From Micrococcus cohnii (GTDB taxonomy: Bacteria > Actinomycetota > Actinomycetes > Actinomycetales > Micrococcaceae), in contig NZ_JACHNA010000001.1 of the NCBI RefSeq assembly GCF_014205175.1, positions 930,001 to 994,000 of the forward strand: a DNA stretch of 64,000 nucleotides, in the 5' to 3' direction. Made by a program: the position numbers and the translations under genes. This document shows, in pieces, positions 33,898 through 39,324 of the stretch. The notes beneath the pieces were generated by a model. The model saw only the letters and a program-made list of their open reading frames with translations, made no database searches and had not been told where the DNA came from. Within the stretch, counting starts at the first letter, position 1; each line of letters starts with the position of its first letter.

Positions 33898-34929
33898 TCA
33901 GACGTCGGGCGGCGTCAGCCCCAGGTGCTCCCAGGCCGCGGCCGTCGCGACGCGGCCGCGCGGCGTGCGGCCGATCATGCCCTCGCGCAACAGGAACGGC
34001 TCGGCGACCGTCTCGATGGTCTCGGTCTCCTCCCCGACGGCGGCCGCGAGCGTCGACAGGCCCACCGGCCCGCCCCCGAAGGTGCGGCACAGCGCCTCCA
34101 GCACGGCGCGATCGAGCCGGTCGAAGCCGCGCTCGTCCACGTCGTACATGCTTAGCGCGTCATCGGCGGCCCGGGCGTCGACCCGGTCGATCCCCTTGAC
34201 CAGCGCCCAGTCGCGCACGCGGCGCAGCAGCCGGTTGGCGATGCGCGGCGTACCGCGCGAACGGGACGCGATCTGGGCGTAGCCGGCCCCGGAGAGCTCC
34301 ACGTCGAGCAGCGCCGAGGAACGGCGCAGCACGAGCTCGAGCTCCTGCGGAGCGTAGAAGTCGAGGTGGCCGGTGAAGCCGAACCGGTCCCGCAGCGGCC
34401 CGGGCAGCAGTCCCGCCCGGGTCGTCGCGCCCACGAGCGTGAACGGCGGCAGCTCGAGCGGGATGGACGTCGCCCCGGCACCCTTTCCGACCACCACGTC
34501 GACCCGGAAGTCCTCCATGGCCATGTAGAGCATCTCCTCGGCGGGTCGGGACATCCGATGGATCTCGTCGAGGAAGAGCACTTCGCCCTCGGTGAGCGAG
34601 GAGAGGATCGCGGCGAGGTCACCGGCATGCTGGATCGCCGGGCCGGAGGAGACCCGCAGCGGGGCGCCCATCTCAGCGGCCACGATCATGGCCAAGGTCG
34701 TCTTGCCGAGCCCGGGCGGGCCCGAGAGCAGGACATGGTCGGCCGCGCGCTCACGCAGGCGGGCCGAGGAGAGCATCAGCTCGAGCTGGCCGCGGACGCG
34801 CTGCTGCCCGACGAATTCGTCGAGGTGCCGTGGCCGCAGTGCGGCTTCGAGCCGACGCTCGTGCTCGTCGGCGTCGGGGGCGACGGGGCGATCGAGGCCG
34901 CCGGTCGGGTCGCGAGGCTCGTGTGCCAT
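33898..34929 (-). CDS. ruvB: Holliday junction branch-migration ATPase RuvB
   Basis: The 343-residue hexameric AAA motor drives branch migration with RuvA. Walker [10 protein letters not shown] lies at residues 70-78, Walker [10 protein letters not shown], sensor motif [11 protein letters not shown] and the arginine finger region RDRFGF. The C-terminal winged helix includes [13 protein letters not shown]. The ATG is 13 bases after ruvA, with GAGGAG about 10 bases upstream. Confidence 0.97.
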
Positions 34930-34942
34930 CGAGGTCGTCTCC

Positions 34943-35593
34943 TCACCGTCCGGAGCGGGCGGTGGCGGCCGTGCCGACGTCGCGCAGGGTCGCGCGCAGC
35001 AGGGCAGGCACGTCGCGGGCCTCGTCCAGCTCCGGAGACGCGGCCAGGGTGGCGCTGACGGCACGCTCGGCGTCCTTGGCCGACCAGCCCAGCGACGTCA
35101 TGGCCTCGACCACGTCCGCCTCCCAGCCGGCGGCGTCAACGGTCGGTGCCGCGGCGGGCGGCTGCGGCGTCGGCTCCGCCTCGGCCGCCCCCGTGGGCGC
35201 GAGTCGGCCGGCCAGCTCGACGATCATCTTCTTGGCGAGTTTGGGGCCGACGCCTGGAACCCGGGTGAGGGCCTTCTCGTCCTCGTTCGAGACGGCCACA
35301 CGTACGGCCTCGGGCCGATGCACGGCCAGCACGGCCAGGGCCAGCCGCGGGCCCACGCCGTTGGCGCCCAGCAGGATCTCGAACACCTCCTGCTCGGCGG
35401 CGTCGGCGAAGCCGTACAGGGTGAGCGCGTCCTCCTTCACCACCAGATGGGTGTGCAGGCGGCCCCGCTCCCCCTCGCGCAGCGTGCCGAGAGTGGCGGG
35501 GGTGGCGAACACGAGCATCCCGACGCCGGAGGCGCTGATCACGGCCCGGTCCAGCCGCACCGACTCGACGATGCCGTCCACGAGGGCGATCAC
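34943..35593 (-). CDS. ruvA: Holliday junction DNA-binding protein RuvA
   Basis: The 216-residue tetramer-forming protein binds four-way junctions. Domain I is an OB fold, domain II carries two HhH motifs ([19 protein letters not shown] and [19 protein letters not shown]), and domain III binds RuvB, linked by a Pro/Ala-rich stretch. I chose the GTG giving (V)[11 protein letters not shown], preceded by GGGGAG at 8 bases; the frame extends 11 residues upstream without conservation. Confidence 0.96.
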
Positions 35594-35695
35594 TCGGTCC
35601 ACTCCCCTTCCTGAGTCTGTCTGCACTCCGCCCCGGTCCGACCGTCCCGGGCGCGGCGGCCCGGCCCCGGGGACGTCCCAGGGCGGGACCAGGAT

Positions 35696-35711
35696 TCGAA
35701 CATACTATCGA
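35696..35711. promoter_or_regulatory. LexA (SOS) box-like palindrome between ruvC and ruvA
   Basis: On the minus strand the 16-mer is TCGATAGTATGTTCGA. The right half matches GTTCGA exactly and the left half differs at two positions from the actinobacterial consensus TCGAAC-N4-GTTCGA. It contains TAGTAT, a usable -10. It overlaps the ruvC stop codon and lies about 100 bases before ruvA, so it could drive a damage-induced ruvAB transcript. Confidence 0.55.
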
Positions 35712-36364
35712 ACGCCACCCCGTCGGGGGCGACGCGCGGCGGCCTCCGCCTCGAGCCACCGGCGCTGGGCCTGCGTCGCGGCGCCCGAGGCCCGGGCAGG
35801 ACCCGGCTGCGCGGGGAAGCGCGAACCCGTCGCGCGCGAGGTCATCGACTCCGTGCGCAGGCCGGTCTGCCCCGCGGCGGACCCCAGGCTGCCAGCGCGC
35901 CATGCATGCGTCAGGGCCAGGGCGATGGCATCGGCTGCATCCGCCGGCCGAGGCGCGGCGTCGAGCCCAAGGATCCTGGTCACCATGGCGGTGACCTGCG
36001 CCTTGCTCGCCGTGCCGCTGCCCGTGACGGCAGCCTTCGCCTCGGACGGGGTGTGCAGCCCGACCTCGAGTCCGGCCCGCGCGGCCGCGGTGATCGCCAC
36101 CCCTGCGGCCTGCGCCGTGCCGAGCACCGTCGGCGTGTTGGCGTTGGCGAACATGCGCTCGACGGCGGCCGCGTCCGGGACGAAGCGTTCCAGCACGCGC
36201 TCGATCACGCGGTCCAGGTGCAGCAACCGCTCGTGCAGGGCCGTGTCGGCCGCGGTGCCGGCGACCTCGACGTGCACCAGACGCGCCCGACGCCGCGCGT
36301 CGACCTCCACCACGGCGATCCCGCAGCGGGTCAGCCCCGGGTCGACACCGAGCACGCGGGCCAC
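35705..36364 (-). CDS. ruvC: Crossover junction endodeoxyribonuclease RuvC
   Basis: The 219-residue resolvase nicks Holliday junctions symmetrically. All four acidic catalytic positions are present: D8 (GVDPG), E69 (AVERMF), D142 and D145 ([15 protein letters not shown]). About 45 extra basic, Arg-rich residues follow the usual end. The start is GTG, 8 bases after yebC. The gap of 111 bases to ruvA is unusual for this operon and contains the SOS-like box. Confidence 0.96.
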
Positions 36365-36372
36365 GGGGCCGC

Positions 36373-37137
36373 TCAGTCCTCGTCGAGCTGCTCGAGCACG
36401 GCGTCCGGGATGTCCACGTTCGAGTAGACGCTCTGGACGTCATCGAGCTCCTCGATCGCGTCGACGAGCTTGAGGAAGGTCCGCGCAGACCCGGCGTCCT
36501 CGAGCTCGACCTTCATCGACGGCACGAACTCCGGCTCGTCGGACTCATAGTCGATGCCGGCCGCGTCGAGGGCCTCCGCGACCGAACGCAGGTCCGAGAC
36601 CTCGCAGCGGATCTCAAGGCTCTCGCCATCGGCCACGACCTCCTCCGCGTCGGCACCGCCCTCGAGAATCGCTTCGAGCAGTCCGTCCTCGGTGTTGCCC
36701 TCGGCGGGCAGGCGCACCACGCCCTTACGCTCGAACAGGAAGGCCACCGAACCGGGGTCGGCGATCGTGCCGCCGTTGCGGGTCACGGCCACCCGGACGT
36801 CCGAGGCGGCCCGGTTCTTGTTGTCCGTGAGGCACTCGACCATCAGGGCTGAGCCGGACGGGCCGCGCACCTCGTACATGGTCTCGGTGTAGTCGACGAC
36901 CTCGCCGGTCAGGCCGGCACCGCGCTTGATGGCGCGCTCGATGTTGTCGTTCGGCACCGAATTCTTCTTGGCCTTGGCCACCGCGAGCTCGAGCGCGGGG
37001 TTTCCGGCGGTGTCCGCGCCGCCGGTGCGCGCCGCGACCTCGATGCCCTTGATGTACTTGGCGAAGGCCTTCGCACGCTTCGCGTCGATCGCGGCCTTCT
37101 TGTGCTTGGTCGTGGCCCATTTGGAATGTCCGGCCAT
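36373..37137 (-). CDS. YebC/PmpR family protein (translation- or transcription-associated factor)
   Basis: The 254-residue protein starts [23 protein letters not shown], the family signature, and has [18 protein letters not shown] in the centre. Members were called transcriptional regulators, and more recent work links them to relief of ribosome stalling. AGGAGG lies 7 bases before the ATG. It heads the yebC-ruvC-ruvA-ruvB cluster. Confidence 0.95.
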
Positions 37138-37238
37138 CTCGGCCCTCCTGTGCATCGACGATTCGGGTTCGGCGATTCAGTCTATAGGCCCCCCGCGCGA
37201 GCAGCCCCGGACGCACGCGCCTGCCGACGCGCCCGGAC

Positions 37239-37244
37239 TACACT
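37239..37244 (+). promoter_or_regulatory. Leaderless promoter (-10) of the M3 peptidase gene
   Basis: TACACT is followed by seven bases (GCCGAGC) and the ATG at 37252, so transcription should start at or next to the A of the start codon. No ribosome binding site is present. Confidence 0.6.
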
Positions 37245-37251
37245 GCCGAGC

Positions 37252-39324
37252 ATGACCGATATCACACCCACCCCTGCCCTGCCTGAGGACAACCCTCTCG
37301 CCGCACCGTCCGAGCTGCCCTACGGGCTGCCCGACTTCGCCGCACTCTCGGACGCCCAGCTGGCCGACGCCCTACGGGCGGGCATGGCCGAGCAGCGTGC
37401 CGAGCTGGAGGCGATCGTCGGCACCGATGCGTCGGCGGACTTCGAGAACACCGTGCGTGCGCTCGAGCTGAGCGGACGCCTGCTGCACCGGGCCCGGGCC
37501 GTGCTCATGACGCTCACCGCCGCCGACGGCACCCCCGGCCGGCAGCGTCTGACCGAACAGATCTCCGCCGAGCTCGCTGCCCACGACGACGCGATCTGGC
37601 TCGACGAACGCCTGGCCGAGCGGGTGGCCTGCGTCGAGACGACGGGACTGGGCGAGCAGGACGCGCGGCTGCTCGAGCGCACTCGGGAGCGCCTCGAGCT
37701 CTCCGGCGCCGCTCTGCCCGCCGCGCAGCGCGACGAGCTGCGCCGCATCAACACGGAACTGGCCACGCTCGAGGCCGTCTACACCCGTCTGCTGGTGGAG
37801 GATGCCGCAGCCCGGGCGGTGGTGGTCACGGACGCCGAGCGGCTGCGCGGACTCGGGGATGAGGACCGGGCGGCGGCCGCCGCGGCCGCGGTCGAGGCCG
37901 GGCACGCCGCTCAGGCGGATCCGGATGAGGGCCCGTGGCTGCTGACCCTGTCCCTGTTCGCCTCGCAGCCGTGGCTGGTGGACCTCGAGGACGAAGGGCT
38001 GCGCCGTGAGGTGCATGAGGCCTCCCTCGGCCGTGGCCGCAGCGGCGAGCGCGAGACGTTGTCCACGGCCATGCGCATGGTCCGGCTGCGATTGGCCAAG
38101 GCGCGTCTGCTCGGCTCGTCCTGCTGGGCGGAGCACGCACTGAAGGACCGGGCCGCCGACTCGGTCGAGGCGGTGACGCACCTGCTGACGAGTCTGGTGC
38201 CGGCGGCCATGGCCAACGCTCGTGCCGACGCCGCCGTGGTGGGCGGTGAGCCGGACGTGCCCGCATGGGACTGGCCCCGTCTGTCGGCCGAGTACGCGCG
38301 AGACCGGTTCCAGGTGGACACGGCGGCGCTGCGCCCGCACTTCGAGCTGGACCGCGTGCTGCACCGGGGCGTGTTCGCCGCCGCCACTGCGCTGTACGGG
38401 CTGCGCTTCGCCGAACGGCCCGAGCTGAGCGCTCACCTGTATCGGCCCGGCATTCGCGTGTTCGAGGTGACGGACGAGGACGGGGCCGAGGTGGGGCTGT
38501 TCGTGGCGGATCTGTACGCACGCCCGACGAAGTCCGGCGGCGCCTGGATGCACACGGTCTCGGACGCCTCGGCGGCGCTGGGCACCCGCCCGGTGGTGTT
38601 CGCGACCATGAACGTTCCGGCCCCGCCGCAGGGACGTCCCACACTGCTGACCCTGGACGAGACGACGACGCTGTTCCACGAGTTCGGGCACGTGCTGCAC
38701 GCGCTGCTGGCCCGAGGTGAGTACGCCTCGCTCTCCGGGGCGAACGTGCCACGGGACGTGGTCGAGTTCCCCTCGCAGGTCAACGAGATGTGGCTGCGCG
38801 AGCCCTCGCTCGTGCACGCCTACGCCCGCCACGTCGACACGGACGAGCCGCTGCCGGCGGGAACGCTCGAGCGTCTGCAGGCGGCGGACCTGTGGGGCGA
38901 GGGCTACCGGACGGCCGAGTATCTGGGGGCGGCGCTGATCGACTGGCGGTGGCACACGCTCACCCAGCAGGCCGTCGAGGAGGCGACGGCGGACCCGCTC
39001 GGCTTCGAGCGGCGCGTGCTGCACGAGGCGGGGCTGGACCCGTCGTTGGTGCCCCCGCGCTACCACACGGGCTGTTTCAAGCACGTGTTCGGCAACGACT
39101 ACGCGGCCGGCTACTACTCGTATCTGTGGGCGGAGGTGCTCGACGCGGACGCCGTCGAATGGTTCCGCGAGAACGGCGGTCTGTCGCGGGCGGCCGGCGA
39201 CCGCTTCGCCGCCGAGCTGCTCAGCCGCGGTGATCAGCGCCCGATGGACGTGTCCTACCGGGCGGTCACCGGTCGCGATCCGCGGCTGGAGCCGCTGCTG
39301 CGTCGGCGCGGCCTGCGGGGCTGA
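37252..39324 (+). CDS. M3 family zinc metallopeptidase (oligopeptidase A/Dcp-like)
   Basis: The 690-residue cytosolic oligopeptidase has the zinc motif HEFGH at residues 476-480 and a downstream third ligand in VEFPSQVNEMW. The C-terminal YHTGCFKHVFGNDYAAGYYSYLWAEV pattern contacts substrate in this family. No signal peptide. The start lies directly downstream of a -10 hexamer. Its last 59 bases overlap the 3' end of the convergent hydrolase gene. Confidence 0.93.
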   Translation: MTDITPTPALPEDNPLAAPSELPYGLPDFAALSDAQLADALRAGMAEQRAELEAIVGTDASADFENTVRALELSGRLLHRARAVLMTLTAADGTPGRQRLTEQISAELAAHDDAIWLDERLAERVACVETTGLGEQDARLLERTRERLELSGAALPAAQRDELRRINTELATLEAVYTRLLVEDAAARAVVVTDAERLRGLGDEDRAAAAAAAVEAGHAAQADPDEGPWLLTLSLFASQPWLVDLEDEGLRREVHEASLGRGRSGERETLSTAMRMVRLRLAKARLLGSSCWAEHALKDRAADSVEAVTHLLTSLVPAAMANARADAAVVGGEPDVPAWDWPRLSAEYARDRFQVDTAALRPHFELDRVLHRGVFAAATALYGLRFAERPELSAHLYRPGIRVFEVTDEDGAEVGLFVADLYARPTKSGGAWMHTVSDASAALGTRPVVFATMNVPAPPQGRPTLLTLDETTTLFHEFGHVLHALLARGEYASLSGANVPRDVVEFPSQVNEMWLREPSLVHAYARHVDTDEPLPAGTLERLQAADLWGEGYRTAEYLGAALIDWRWHTLTQQAVEEATADPLGFERRVLHEAGLDPSLVPPRYHTGCFKHVFGNDYAAGYYSYLWAEVLDADAVEWFRENGGLSRAAGDRFAAELLSRGDQRPMDVSYRAVTGRDPRLEPLLRRRGLRG

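Follow-up and report, generated by a model that had tools for sequence, protein, structure and literature searches.

A probable LexA operator between ruvC and ruvA in Micrococcus cohnii and its relatives

The window analysed here is a stretch of 64,000 nucleotides from Micrococcus cohnii in which yebC, ruvC, ruvA and ruvB follow each other in this order on the minus strand, with 8 nt between yebC and ruvC and 111 nt between ruvC and ruvA (Table 1). A LexA-type box, which reads TCGAACATACTATCGA on the plus strand (35696-35711), reaches into the latter gap. An earlier note on this DNA had claimed a match to the actinobacterial LexA box at 10 of 12 positions between ruvC and ruvA, and this match is indeed present: compared with TCGAAC-N4-GTTCGA, the box has two mismatches in the 12 defined positions, with one full half-site (GTTCGA) and TCGATA as the other half. 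The TAG stop codon of ruvC lies inside the box, an overlap absent from that note. The 111-nt gap had been called unusual. This holds in comparison with mycobacteria and others, but such a gap is normal in the family, where the ruvC-ruvA gap ranged from 27 to 234 nt in 98 loci.

Table 1. Features of the ruv locus (positions in the window).
Feature	Position	Strand	Remarks
LexA-type (SOS) box TCGATAGTATGTTCGA	35711-35696	minus	overlaps ruvC stop codon
ruvC-ruvA gap, 111 nt	35594..35704	minus	presumed ruvAB promoter/leader region (putative promoter)
yebC	36373..37137	minus	8 nt before ruvC; presumably one unit with ruvC
ruvC (Holliday junction resolvase)	35705..36364	minus	TIGR00228 over cut-off
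ruvA, GTG start	34943..35593	minus	TIGR00084 over cut-off
ruvB	33898..34929	minus	TIGR00635, NF000868; start codon picked by eye

Taken alone, a match at 10 of 12 positions is weak, because the 2.28-Mb genome contains 290 sites with ≤2 mismatches, as against 122 for the reversed control pattern. The 64-kb window likewise holds 69 sites with ≤3 mismatches where 27.8 would be expected. A more specific measure was obtained from a symmetric matrix trained on 80 upstream sites (≤2 mismatches to the consensus) from 30 recA and 31 lexA loci, with up to two sites per lexA; a site was present in 28 of these recA and 29 of these lexA loci. The training genes came from 36 family genomes, with recA found in all 36 and lexA in 35. 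Training sites scored 10.5-28.1 (median 23.4), and 10.5 served as the threshold for the locus counts. With this matrix, the ruvA box ranked first in the window at 16.4, followed by a site inside a long open reading frame at 15.05. When the window's own genus was left out of the training (67 sites), the ruvA box scored 16.8 and the next site 14.8. Five sites outscored the ruvA box among the genome matches listed (100 of the 290, none beyond 870 kb), namely one site of recA, two sites of lexA, a site upstream of a partial dnaE-type gene, and one inside an open reading frame. In our reading the partial dnaE-type gene is dnaE2, with family scores under the cut-off and only part of the gene scored. 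At the level of sequence, these results place the box in one family of sites with the boxes that recA and lexA have in the same genomes.

The window genome has both lexA and recA, each with its own boxes. Three LexA-like sites precede its lexA (G000:C1:404338-404420), and several relatives have similar multiple sites. A perfect LexA box is also found at L003:1501-1516 (G000:C1:712026), before a short open reading frame and a dnaE-type polymerase gene.

The earlier note had named absence of the box from sister species as an outcome that would refute its proposal, and this is not what we found in the genus. The genus sample comprised 11 genomes, with a ruvC match in 10 and none in G009, and by sequence the box was kept in all 10 loci read; it precedes ruvA by 47 to 118 nt, and the gaps measure 80 to 191 nt. 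Nine of these loci exceeded the matrix threshold; the tenth (L115) scored only 7.5. The 20-bp box was 85-95% identical to that of the window, compared with 28-53% for the ungapped flanks. The left half-site was off-consensus throughout the genus, with TCGATR in nine loci and TCGTTA in one. This degenerate half, and a score of 16.4 where the training sites had a median of 23.4, might be taken to signify a former LexA site that in this genus is vestigial or too weakly bound to regulate. Yet the box is better conserved than its flanks within the genus, and weak boxes can work: LexA of S. venezuelae binds off-consensus boxes, according to an excerpt of PMC9380542. We regard a vestigial site as quite unlikely.

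The same pattern extends to the family, where 391 of 395 genomes (32 genera) yielded a ruvC. We read 98 family loci covering the 32 genera, and five more, which gives 103; the 93 lexA-bearing loci are those outside the genus g21 and the genome G133. The box was found by pattern in 92 of these 93 loci, whereas dinucleotide shuffles would yield 1.6; the pattern (≤2 mismatches to TCGNNNNTATGTTCGN) was written after the sequences had been viewed. The matrix at 10.5 recovered 82 of the 93 loci vs 0.5 expected, and 11 fell below the threshold. None of the 93 loci had a ruvC-ruvA spacing of ≤10 nt. Outside the genus the commonest form of the box was TCGTAGATATGTTCGG, which was also found in all eight named Arthrobacter and Paenarthrobacter loci. 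The idea that a degenerate motif is matched here by chance, for which the many ≤2-mismatch sites in the genome could be held to speak, is rejected by this conservation in the family and in all 10 genus loci, and we give it next to no probability.

The TAGTAT hexamer proposed as a -10 element is present, but it is not conserved: it occurred in only three of the 10 genus loci, as against TGATAT in seven, and was rejected as a conserved -10. In the family as a whole, TAgggT is the better conserved -10-like element, located just before the box in most genera, and TATGTT is nearly invariant, both as seen in aligned rows picked by pattern. The window genome is without the TAgggT element, and a scan of 35300-37400 for the sigma-70 consensus returned no promoters. 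In most genera TAgggT ends 2 nt before the box; transcription would then start near the fifth base of the box, which could explain why the left half reads TCGTA and not TCGAA.

An alternative explanation might be that the element is only a piece of a promoter, a -10 or start site such as TATGTT, whose resemblance to a LexA box is accidental. The near invariance of TATGTT, the TAgggT just upstream in most genera (again in rows picked by pattern) and the poor left half-site would all suit this explanation. However, the conserved columns in these pattern-picked rows cover 16 bp, including the GTTCG half-site, and several genera have near-full palindromes (g31, TAGAACGTATGTTCGA; g6, TCGCACATCTGTTCGA), with scores of up to 25.8 in family f4. 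Moreover, the box is absent from the lexA-less genus g21, where a promoter should still be needed. We consider it unlikely that the element is a promoter piece and nothing else.

A further possibility is that the gap holds a RecA-independent promoter of the PafBC type, with LexA playing a minor role or none. PafBC/RecA-NDp promoters are damage-responsive promoters of actinobacterial repair genes with the motif TGTCGG-N10-TA-N3-T (excerpt of PMC8151990), and an excerpt of PMC8223512 names RuvA and RuvC among the mycobacterial targets of PafBC. A PafBC-type motif with ≤2 mismatches was found in eight of the 103 family loci (L154, L203, L138, L147, L149, L157, L179 and L192), ending 2 nt before the LexA box in six of them, abutting it in one and ending 16 nt away in one. 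In contrast, the best match to TGTCRGTG-N8-TANNNT in the gap of the window genome had four mismatches, and no genus locus had the motif at ≤2 mismatches. A PafBC-type promoter was therefore rejected for the window genome, and as an explanation of the gap it is highly improbable. In some other genera, the sequences suggest that ruvAB may be under double damage control by PafBC and LexA.

If the box serves LexA, it should matter whether a genome still has LexA. In genus g21, lexA exceeded the curated cut-off in none of nine genomes (G030, G057, G080, G099, G115, G129, G143, G157 and G168; one is 71% and one 88% complete): two gave no match and seven gave weak matches (E 3.7e-11 to 1.1e-22). None of the nine ruv loci had the box (best score 5.7), although a gap of 75-85 nt is still there, and the recA promoter of G030, the sole g21 one read, also has no box. 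These nine genomes represent one evolutionary loss, not nine. In another family, the 0.8-Mb genome G444 has no lexA match and no box, and its ruvC overlaps ruvA; four lexA-bearing relatives have boxes scoring 24.1 to 25.8. The tie between box and lexA is supported by these sequence comparisons but it is not clean, because three genomes without a lexA match keep a box. G133 (locus L270, 97% complete) retains TCGTAGATATGTTCGG before ruvA, possibly after a recent loss of lexA or owing to an assembly gap; G480 (a draft of about 700 contigs) also retains the box before ruvA, and G432 (73% complete) before ruvC. G415, again with no lexA match, has no box, and neither have three of its five lexA-bearing relatives. 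Conversely, the family genome G036 has lexA and has lost its recA box.

The earlier note had proposed that ruvAB, but not ruvC, gains its own damage-induced promoter. A LexA-type site that serves ruvAB and not ruvC is supported by its conservation, by its likeness to the recA and lexA sites of the family, by its absence from the lexA-less g21, and by the matrix scan of the window, which found no comparable site before ruvC or yebC. The arrangement is family-wide, however, and not special to this genome. Sites before ruvC reached 10.5 in two of the 93 lexA-bearing family loci, and at a threshold of 9 both positions had a site in 10 of the 93; in our reading, those pre-ruvC sites that we viewed are probably codons from the end of yebC (CAGAACGTCTACTC). 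A LexA-like match also occurs within ruvC (window 36147-36162, score 8.57), with related matches in the ruvC coding sequence of relatives. These internal matches probably reflect conserved VERMFA codons and are a trap for motif scans: a control segment of 134 nt inside the ruvC coding sequence reached the matrix threshold in 9/93 lexA-bearing family loci, 4/9 g21 loci and 5/79 loci of other families.

Outside the family, we read 79 of the 138 other genomes of the order, from 19 families, with one duplicate locus (L366) dropped; six loci without a readable ruvA start were excluded from the ruvA counts (n = 73). At a threshold of 10.5, the box was found before ruvA in 38 of 73 loci, before ruvC in 11 of 79, and at both positions in none of 73. 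Boxes before ruvC characterized families f5 (3/3) and f17 (7/7), and other families, f19 and f20 among them, often had neither. Some gene spacings of several hundred nt in the order and in the named loci may be parsing artefacts. With the box before ruvC (10 loci with spacing), yebC and ruvC were 82-344 nt apart and the ruvC-ruvA spacing was ≤10 nt in eight loci. With the box before ruvA, the yebC-ruvC spacing was -1 to 104 nt (median 28) in 83 family loci and -7 to 675 nt (median 53.5) in 38 loci of other families. The named loci read were the best 80 of 329; ruvC overlapped ruvA in 57 of the 80, and those of mycobacteria, Nocardioides and Actinoplanes, which lie beyond the order, had the box mostly about 20-50 nt before ruvC. 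In one record titled as a Bifidobacterium breve MAG (L092), the box at ruvC is identical to the one in a Mycobacterium MAG (L094), and the label of this record may be wrong. Most simply read, these sequences suggest that ruvAB may have replaced ruvCAB as the regulated unit across much of the order.

The 16-bp element is very probably an operator for LexA, placed over the start region of a promoter for ruvAB that leaves ruvC unserved. Three results carry and support this sequence-based case: the matrix rank, the conservation in otherwise diverged gaps, and the absence from the lexA-less g21. With one full and one degenerate half-site, the box would be bound by LexA with moderate affinity, and bound LexA would block the promoter in the ruvC-ruvA gap. 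Upon DNA damage, RecA-triggered cleavage of LexA would then raise RuvAB. Since there is no box before ruvC, this gene is presumably not damage-induced and would be made together with yebC without SOS control. Some read-through from yebC-ruvC into ruvAB may occur, because no terminator-like site was found in the gap; the two sites of the terminator scan both lie within yebC. Here, as in E. coli, ruvAB appears to form a unit distinct from yebC-ruvC.

SOS control in S. venezuelae and M. tuberculosis acts at ruvC (excerpts of PMC9380542 and PMC8151990), although RecA-independent induction of ruvC in M. tuberculosis is also reported, to judge from the title of a cited paper. The ruvC(AB) boxes of Mycobacterium, Streptomyces and other actinobacteria share with our box the TCGAAC-N4-GTTCGA motif family and the same genes (excerpts of PMC8151990 and PMC9380542); however, they lie before ruvC, at -23 in S. 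venezuelae, whereas the box described here lies before ruvA. The PafBC/RecA-NDp motif was found in 8/103 family loci but not in the window genome.

A close parallel comes from E. coli, in which LexA-controlled ruvAB responds to SOS and ruvC, which lies upstream, does not (excerpts of PMC4080785 and PMC3323433). As in E. coli, the LexA site lies before ruvA with none before ruvC, but the phylum and the LexA motif are different, and the operon of E. coli and its close relatives is described as split in the excerpted text, whereas here the genes are adjacent. For the ruvCAB genes of Vibrionaceae, one LexA site is described at ruvC and another at ruvAB (excerpt of PMC3323433). The LexA site and presumed secondary promoter before ruvAB are similar to ours in the same excerpt, but some Vibrionaceae are also boxed before ruvC, where we found no site of comparable strength. 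The LexA network of Actinobacteria has been called well documented, in a paper whose excerpted main text does not name ruvA or ruvC (PMC7739468), and our searches of openly licensed papers gave no description, for this lineage, of a LexA site in the ruvC-ruvA gap. Our results point to a further lineage with an arrangement already known elsewhere, SOS-controlled ruvAB apart from ruvC.

Actinobacterial SOS-box searches that are limited to the region upstream of ruvC would overlook this lineage's site. The results indicate that SOS control can extend to ruvAB and spare ruvC, as it does in E. coli, in another phylum with another LexA motif too. This fits the suggestion, made in the excerpted part of PMC3323433, that ruvAB is under stronger selection for SOS control than ruvC, and a lexA-less genus together with lineages boxed at one or the other position makes the idea testable. 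A broader scenario, which we would place midway between doubtful and probable, is that a large actinobacterial lineage re-drew its ruv operon from [yebC][ruvCAB] to [yebC-ruvC][ruvAB] and moved the LexA operator inside, convergent with E. coli and Vibrio; in several genera, a PafBC-type promoter directly before a LexA operator at the start site would put the genes under double damage control, and the genus that lost LexA would have erased the operator. If this is true, selection would prefer a damage-inducible branch-migration motor to a damage-inducible resolvase.
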